Source: Lethocerus indicus
Lineage: Eukaryota; Arthropoda; Insecta; Hemiptera; Belostomatidae
Length of the DNA: 64,000 nt
NCBI GenBank assembly: GCA_019843655.1
Contig: JACDQD010000011.1
Location: 10,210,604-10,274,603 of the forward strand
Reading direction: 5' to 3'
A program made the position numbers and the translations under genes. Of this stretch, positions 31,345-34,300 are shown one piece after another. The notes beneath the pieces are model-generated. The model saw only the letters and a program-made list of their open reading frames with translations, did not search any database and was not told the DNA's origin. The number at the start of each line of letters is the position of its first letter. Positions within the stretch are counted from its first letter, which is position 1.

Positions 31345-34300
31345 CTGAAATAAAAGGAAAAAACAATATTCAGTAAGTTTTGAGTTATAAACTTCACTTT
31401 TTATTTTAAATTTTTAAAACAAGTTTGTTTTCATATTTCAAATGGTACAGCACCATTTAAATTATCTTTTACTCGTTCTGTAATAAAAAATTTGTCATCG
31501 TTTGTTAACCCTTGAAACAAAACTTTTCTTGAAAATGGATAAATAATGCTTTAAATCTTTGAGCATTACAGGTACAAATATTAATAGGACTCTAAGAACG
31601 AAATTATCATAGAAAGAAAGAAGGAATATCCCAAATTAGGTTCAACTCAAACAACATATAAAATCAAATATAAACGCTCGATGATAACTACAGATATAAA
31701 CTCAACAAGTTGAATCTTAACATAACCTTTACTGAAATTATTTTTGGCACATAGTACTTTATTACTGCACAAATGAAAAATATCAAACTGACGGACTCCA
31801 AAAACGTTGTAACCTCTCAAAAATATAAAATATGAATTGTGCAGTTCTATAGTTATTATTGAGGCATTTAGATTACTGTTTAAAGTGTTGGAGAGGTTAT
31901 AACGTCAATCTTTAATGATTAATAATATTTTTCTTTAAAAGAATATTGAAAGATAACTTTGATGTTCAATAGTTCTTAATTTTCATTCTCTTCTGCTAAT
32001 AAATATTTTTTTATATATTAATATTTATAAACTGAACTACTTATATTGATAATACCTACATGCAATTATCAAAGGATGCATGCTGAAGGTGACTTAAGAA
32101 CAGTTCAGAAATAAAACAAAACTTTTTCATATGGTGAAGAAATCAAAAACATAAATTCTAAACACACAAACACACATGGAACGGACAAAAGAATAGAAAT
32201 ATTACTTTTTAAAAAATATTTACTCTTATGTGCAAAACTATTTTCATATTAAAACGGTGAGTCTAGTTTTGTCACATGTGAAAAACTGCTGTCAGTTTGA
32301 TATCAAAGTGTATGTATATAAAATATTCTAGTGATGAACACTTTCTACTTGGAAAAAATCCATACACCTAGGCTAAAAAAAAATCCATATGGAAAATAAA
32401 ACCAATTCTAAACTTTTTGTTTATAAGTGATCCCAGTGCCTGCCGCTAATTAATTTCATTTCTTGTCAACTAAGTTTCAGTGCCATCAATAAGAACAAAA
32501 ACTATGCATTGTTAAAATAACTAAATTCTCAATTGTATTTACAGTAAAACTTCACAATTTAGACAATCGAAAGGGGATTTGATTGGGTCAACAAAATATT
32601 ATTCACCTACAGTTGAAATACCTCATACAAACTTAAAGAAACAGTCATATGAAAATTTTCTTGAAGACAATACCATGTTATTTTAATGAGCGTAATGCAG
32701 TTTGTGCACTTGTCTTATTTAATAAGTAAATTGAAGGAAAATTTGGTCCTCCAACAGGATTCAATCTATTTACACCGTACGACTTTAACCCATACCTCAA
32801 ATGCCAATGATATCAGCTTAGACGCCTCATGATGTACCAAATTTTCATTCCAGTACTATTATTTCAGAAATTAAGCTAGGTCTAAATTAGTAATGTTTTA
32901 CTGTATATGCTGTTGAAAACATCTTACATCATTAAACGACAGAGAAACCCAAAATCAATATTTTATTCAACTATAAAATAATAAAAGAAACGAAATGAAA
33001 GAATCTTGAGTCATCTAAGAAGGCTAGTGTGAAAATGAATGATCAAATAAACTTTCTTTAGGCTGGCTTTTCTTAAGTTTTTTCTGGATTTTGATATTTT
33101 CAAAATGGCAAATCGGAGGGGGCATCATCTCGTACAGCCTTCTCCATTTTGGCCAATTTCTCCTTTTCTTTTTTCGCTTTTTCCGCGCAACAAGCCTGAA
33201 TACCGGCGCTCAGTCTTGTCACAAAGTCTGCATAACAACAACAACAGAAAAATAGTGGAACAAGCCACATTTCAAAAAACAGATGCCCCGAATTCCTTAA
33301 GTCTGTATCGTAACTCAAAAATTTCAAAATGATTTCTTTCAATAAACAGCCATCTAAATTCTGGAGCCACAAGAGGAAGGTTCTTGGACCAATATAATTT
33401 TCTGTCAATTCTACTAAGTGTCCGAATTTTTATTTCACATCCAACTGTTATAAATCTGATCTATGTATTTGTGTGCTGGTTCTGGTACCCAATTTTTTGT
33501 TTTGAAATAAACAATTTCACTCCAAACAATTACTAAAAGAGTGCACTGGGGTTTAAAATGCTGGTTGTTGTCAGTTCTAGCTTCTTCTAACAATCACCGG
33601 TGGGTACTTCAAGTTTAGGGACTCGGGATGGTAGATTACAAATTGAAGTTTAGAGTTAAACAAAATTGTGAAATTTTCAGGATAACAGACAAAATACATT
33701 CACGTTTCACATTCTACGGGAGTAGCAGAAGGTTTCTACATTAGAATCCATTTATTACTGACTGTTGTCTGACTAAACCCACGTTGAAACTATCCAAATA
33801 ATGTTGATGATAAGCAAGTAACCAAACCTTGTCCAGCCCAGAACAGAACTACATCAGACTAATGGACAATGACAATCCCTTGTGGACCTTTTCAAGAATC
33901 CTTGGTTGTCAATTTTTTGGGTATAGAATAACCTGTGTGGGACTCAACCAAGATAGGTGGATTGAAACAAATCCACTAGACAATGGTGCCTAACACAAAA
34001 ATTCCTAAATAAAAGCTATATAAAACATGTTGTGGTAGAACAGGAACAAAAACATTTTAAACTAAAAACTTTATATGATTAATTAGGGTTTTTTCATTAT
34101 ATCAGTCCTGGTACAAACTAAAATTTCCTTGTTTCGAGATAGATTCATAAACAACCTGATTAATTTTATATTTATTTCTCTATCTTTGTTTTATTATTGA
34201 ATTTAATAAACCACAGACAAGGAGATTTAAACCAAAATTACAGATTCACACATTTATCTAAATGAACATGAAATATATGGGGGGAGGGGGTAATAAACTG

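Follow-up and report, generated by a model that had tools for sequence, protein, structure and literature searches.

The last intron of a calmodulin gene in the window, the whole 64-kb stretch of DNA analysed here, appears to hold at least two alternative last exons, 4a and 4b, either of which would replace the end of the protein when joined to exon 3. Exon 4a, the firmer part of the finding and probably the older of the two, resembles the tails of calmodulins annotated in other insects. Exon 4b, the more unusual one, was flagged in a preliminary description of this DNA; from the signals in the sequence we lean towards reading it as a genuine coding exon. On balance we read 4b as the second alternative last exon of the gene, limited to this lineage, whose product would be a calmodulin with its fourth site weakened and a long helix at its end.

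In animals, calmodulin is generally regarded as a single, almost unchanging protein. Should insects splice in ends that change calcium site IV, experiments that reckon with a single calmodulin would have to be reconsidered, and such isoforms would offer a natural test of the roles of the last helix and the last ligand.

The gene lies on the minus strand (Table 1). Joined in frame, an ATG, exon 2, exon 3 and the canonical last exon gave a 149-residue product identical to the calmodulin sequence used as query. The intron that follows exon 3 is 5.56 kb long with 30% GC. AG-free runs before the regular acceptors measured 45 nt (canonical last exon), 56 nt (exon 2) and 43 nt (exon 3), and the canonical last exon is preceded by three matches to the branch-point pattern YTNAY, one of them well placed.

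Table 1. Features of the calmodulin gene and of its last intron, in window coordinates; a slash marks a splice junction.
Feature	Position	Strand	Details	Basis
GC-rich block upstream of exon 2	40001-42000		GC 0.458; candidate promoter and first exon of calmodulin	
Calmodulin exon 2, coding	39233-39059	-	ends in phase 1; donor GTAAAATT	tblastn, joined reading frame
Calmodulin exon 3	37147-36905	-	ends ...NYE + G; donor GAGG/GTAAGT, phase 1	tblastn, joined reading frame
Exon 4a (candidate)	35104-34998	-	35 residues and stop; acceptor CTTCTCCTTGCAG/	resembles tails of other insect calmodulins
Donor-like GTCA/GTAAGAG inside 4a	35059-35054	-	45 nt (a multiple of 3) after the 4a acceptor	
Acceptor AG of 4b and preceding 66 AG-free nt	33295-33228	-	includes a T/G-rich tract	acceptor scan
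Exon 4b (candidate)	33227-33100	-	42 residues and stop; 128 nt including TGA	joined reading frame, composition, acceptor, simulations
AATAAA, possible poly(A) signal for 4b	32967-32962	-	133 nt past the 4b stop	
Canonical last coding exon	31344-31316	-	EFVTMMTSK and stop; acceptor TTTCAG/	joined reading frame

Exon 4a, like 4b, is in phase with the exon 3 donor, and its identification draws on calmodulins of five other insects whose end is replaced after NYE, as it would be in the window gene. Myzus persicae calmodulin-alpha isoform X1 ends NYE-DFHTLARTIFVRTVTVV..., Daktulosphaira vitifoliae calmodulin isoform X3 ends NYE-DFQILARSIYLR..., Parthenolecanium corni calmodulin ends NYE-DFHTIAQLVLAR... 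and a 115-residue fragment of Eumeta calmodulin ends NYE-DFHALAKKVFAAEDVGR. In Pieris brassicae calmodulin isoform X2, 27 other residues and an A follow NYE before DFRALAQTIFARGEGGR (DFRALAQ); these extra residues are probably a retained intron. When the Myzus persicae tail was searched against the window intron (tblastn, 5.65-kb region), its counterpart in 4a was placed at 35104 (E 4.8e-4).

The same five stand out among the proteins retrieved from the database, where the best 120 of 7972 matches to a 4b-isoform query and the best 120 of 2042 matches to a 4a hybrid query comprised 187 distinct proteins. The pattern D-F-x-x-[LI]-A-[RQK], which 4a shows when joined after NYE and 4b (DFVTRLS) does not, occurred in 5 of these 187, four of them carrying it directly after NYE. 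In a local search with the window 4a tail against the 187, those five, all of them database annotations, ranked first with E values from 2e-4 to 1.8, so that single matches are partly weak. The tails of these five calmodulins (DFxx[LI]A...) differ from that of 4b, for which none of them offers a counterpart. That an aphid, a phylloxera, a scale insect and two lepidopterans have such similar tails at one and the same junction is hard to explain other than by an old alternative exon. Since 4a resembles tails in all five, alternative calmodulin ends appear common to Hemiptera and Lepidoptera.

The likeness among 4a tails covers about the first 12-16 residues, after which the three hemipteran tails diverge. 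A donor-like GTCA/GTAAGAG lies within 4a in the window, and because of it 4a could be internal: it may be a 45-nt, phase-neutral cassette exon whose annotated tail is read-through. Near the corresponding place Myzus, Daktulosphaira and Parthenolecanium have Val-Ser, a possible GTNAGT (codons inferred from the protein) that would be in another phase than in the window; none of the proteins listed has 4a followed by FVTMMTSK. Exon 4a coincides with the second-highest GC peak of the intron, but GC upstream of its acceptor (0.45) is no lower than that of the exon (0.42), and the third peak (0.429) follows closely. A structural model of the Myzus persicae isoform from a six-row alignment had a mean pLDDT of 61.5, below 50 at residues 152-167, and we draw no conclusion from it. 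As a separate observation, a metagenomic calmodulin (P0159) ends after NYE in DFKAMKLDPDMMRLAIELDKDLWMY, another Asp-Phe replacement.

At 4b, a CAG acceptor (...TTATGCAG/ directly before the exon, in the context ...GTTGTTGTTATGCAG) lies in the phase of the exon 3 donor, and the frame behind it is open to a stop. The coordinates, phase and poly(A) distance reported for 4b in the preliminary description were right to the base, and reading an ATG, exon 2, exon 3 and 4b as one frame reproduced the 182-residue product that it had proposed. This isoform retains calmodulin residues 1-140 and replaces the normal end with 42 residues that begin DFVTRLS and end ...SDLPF. Two further changes that had been described, Glu to Asp at position 12 of loop IV and the loss of both C-lobe Met residues, were seen in the joined frame, in which the latter become Arg and Leu. 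The translation likewise contains the Lys/Glu-rich tail noted before, with mixed Lys and Glu (net charge +2 over the first 35 residues) and a Cys-Cys pair; an AlphaFold model of the tail, made without an alignment, was a single helix over residues 2-32 of 41, with low-to-moderate confidence (mean pLDDT 65.5, pTM 0.26). One earlier suggestion, that 4b arose by duplication of the canonical exon, found no support: the two share 14 of 27 nt, a value equalled by two other sites among the 134 YAGs of the intron.

Several signals support 4b as a plausible terminal exon, as first proposed. No 126-nt stretch of the intron is richer in GC than the one from 33232, which falls on 4b (0.492); the next peaks are 0.444 at 35134 (4a) and 0.429 at 33952. 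GC amounts to 0.34 over the 53 nt before 4b, 0.47 within it and 0.30 over the 100 nt after it, and the 126-nt window of 4b itself, at 0.468, is reached by 0.4% of intron windows. Protein-likeness was scored by residue composition, using Swiss-Prot frequencies; as few as 4 of the 935 open 42-codon windows in the intron were as protein-like as the 4b tail, all four being the tail itself or the tail shifted, and the tail scored 0.354 against 0.124 for the best unrelated intron window. Its acceptor has the longest AG-free run (66 nt) among the 134 intron YAGs, with 16 pyrimidines in 22 positions, a value matched by 11 of the 134. Simulated introns were also compared, under thresholds that, as in all the chance tests of 4b, were set post hoc with the exon already seen: of 4000 second-order Markov introns, 45 contained a comparable acceptor with a [DE]F start and at least 35 codons, and none of 500 first-order ones (mean 0.104) had, as this intron does with 4a and 4b, two acceptors with [DE]F, at least 30 codons and at least 9/14 pyrimidines.

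Other results leave room for 4b being a chance open frame after a cryptic acceptor, with 4a the only functional alternative exon, a reading that we judge unlikely while giving it real weight. Frame length is no evidence for 4b, because in this phase at least 42 codons are open behind 18 of the 134 intron YAGs, among them 6 that are 4b or upstream sites reading into it. The composition signal holds only against the AT-rich intron, because, over all 64 kb, 697 of the 13260 open 42-codon windows equal or exceed the score of 4b. Once the [DE]F start was dropped, a decent acceptor with at least 35 codons occurred in 1155 of the 4000 simulated introns; [DE]F acceptors taken alone were unremarkable under the first-order null (6 observed, 3.7 expected), and the DFV start recurs in the intron, where an unrelated acceptor at 35831 reads DFVH. 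The AG-free run is no sure guide either, because 4a, supported by homology, is unremarkable on it (19 nt, reached by 55 of 134 YAGs), and the AATAAA past 4b is weak on its own as one of 13 on the minus strand from 36904 to 31000. The codon-position GC of 4b (0.53/0.42/0.47) gave no strong coding signature; YTNAY matched nowhere in the 75 nt before 4b, nor in the 75 nt before 4a; and the 4b tail is without a relative among the database matches listed. What argues against a chance frame is that three maxima of the intron, in GC, in protein-like residue composition and in AG-free length before an acceptor, coincide at one in-phase place.

Two further accounts fare worse. Exons 4a and 4b might serve mainly in RNA control, an early transcript end or an unstable mRNA lowering the amount of normal calmodulin, with tails of little use. 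The short reach of the likeness among 4a tails fits this, as do the donor-like site within 4a and the hydrophobic sequence into which two of the three diverging hemipteran tails run, which could be intron. The part of 4a that is shared is, however, similar as protein between Hemiptera and Lepidoptera in the alignment, and 4b, measured against the intron, resembles protein from end to end; we consider RNA control as the main role improbable. Still less credence goes to a separate small intronic gene, a 56-codon frame open from an ATG at 33270 to the stop, whose hydrophobic start makes it look like a short secreted peptide with a signal sequence. That hydrophobic part overlaps the T/G-rich tract of the 4b acceptor, and GC reaches 0.47 only from 33227 on. 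Exon 4a has the same ...GCAG/AY arrangement, and in four database proteins its counterpart is attached to NYE. The tail had no Pfam match and the 56-residue frame covering 4b no NCBIfam match above the cut-off.

Relatives of the 4b tail were sought in a database of 5.8 billion proteins by searches that depend on shared exact words, and none was found among the matches listed. The search with the tail alone gave 2 candidates, neither at E<=10; the best local match within the 187 listed proteins was a Lys/Glu run at E 1.3, and no related tail that would indicate a conserved 4b coding frame appeared among the database proteins listed. Rfam gave no match at the gathering threshold. A weak PDB match of the tail to TFIID subunit 1 (E 0.037, residues 3-33) involves a Lys/Glu helix and was set aside as composition. 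We also rejected 4b as a piece of a repeat or transposon, as it has no second copy within the 64-kb window beyond 12-13-nt words and no Pfam match. Exon 4b may be restricted to this lineage, be unannotated elsewhere or not be real.

If the preferred reading of 4b as an alternative last exon is right, some cells would splice the exon 3 donor to the 4b acceptor and not to the canonical acceptor, which lies 1.9 kb farther along, and would cleave the transcript within the intron, after the AATAAA at 32967. At the exon 3 junction the divided codon becomes G+AY in both 4a and 4b of the window, which puts Asp in place of Glu as the last ligand of Ca2+ site IV; four of the five insect database calmodulins have the same Asp after NYE. 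Glu at position 12 of an EF loop supplies two oxygens, according to PMC5743801 and PMC5983762, and the latter also states, in line with the preliminary description, that Asp at this position shifts selectivity from Ca2+ to Mg2+. Asp as last ligand of site IV should weaken Ca2+ binding by the C-lobe. The 4b isoform would probably keep a nearly normal N-lobe, while its C-lobe would be adjusted in its preference between Ca2+ and Mg2+ and in the partners that it binds. The last calmodulin helix is predicted to continue as a long charged helix with the Cys-Cys pair, and the tail would serve as a fused helix for interaction or autoregulation.

Taken together with 4a, this would amount to an ancient switch at the end of insect calmodulin: last exons in intron 3 that swap the site-IV Glu for Asp, with 4a in Hemiptera and Lepidoptera and 4b, a helical arm of about 40 residues, in this lineage, giving a Mg2+-tolerant C-lobe and private partners. 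We hold this wider proposal tentatively and rate it as somewhat short of probable.

Calmodulins with C-terminal extensions are described in plants: petunia CaM53, rice OsCaM61 and variants of Arabidopsis CaM5, CaM7 and CML11 are named in PMC12609287. Like the 4b isoform, they consist of a calmodulin body with a C-terminal extension, and that paper gives the Arabidopsis ones as splice variants. The CaM53/OsCaM61 type of tail is, in the same source, basic and ends in a prenylation (CaaX) motif, whereas 4b has no CaaX motif (it ends DLPF) and is not strongly basic at its net charge of +2 over 35 residues. No plant tail surfaced among the matches listed in the tail-only and 4b-isoform protein searches. 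According to PMC5983762, plants also have calmodulin-like proteins in which position 12 of an EF loop is Asp, the same Glu-to-Asp change of the -Z ligand as in the 4b isoform; they are separate genes, not an isoform of the conserved calmodulin itself.

Among the open-licence papers listed in text searches, none was recognised as describing alternative C-termini of insect calmodulin, and tail or junction peptide words gave no match together with calmodulin or with one another; in PMC7912986 and PMC4956038, "calmodulin isoform X1" is named without a sequence in a whitefly and a beetle. Isoforms like 4a already exist as database entries, and extended spliced calmodulins are already known in plants. 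The earlier statement that no calmodulin tail like that of 4b had been described accordingly stands for this tail itself and falls for extended calmodulins as a class, which, some of them made by splicing, occur in plants (PMC12609287).

Contig collections were searched as well: the viral collection contributed one contig at 70% identity, and the prokaryote collections six with bacterial or archaeal labels, of which one in a Verrucomicrobiaceae bin reached 84% and the others 30-42%. Elsewhere in the window, separate frames tried within 19515-25331 (+) had no Pfam hit at E<=0.01; by a motif in one of them, these frames look like a monocarboxylate-transporter gene. Related fragments at 56159-56467 (-) and at 2411-2868 and 22642-23130 (+), two frames of which were tried against Pfam with no hit, resemble the final part of the reverse transcriptase of a Jockey-like retrotransposon (LSPHPNPLV...).
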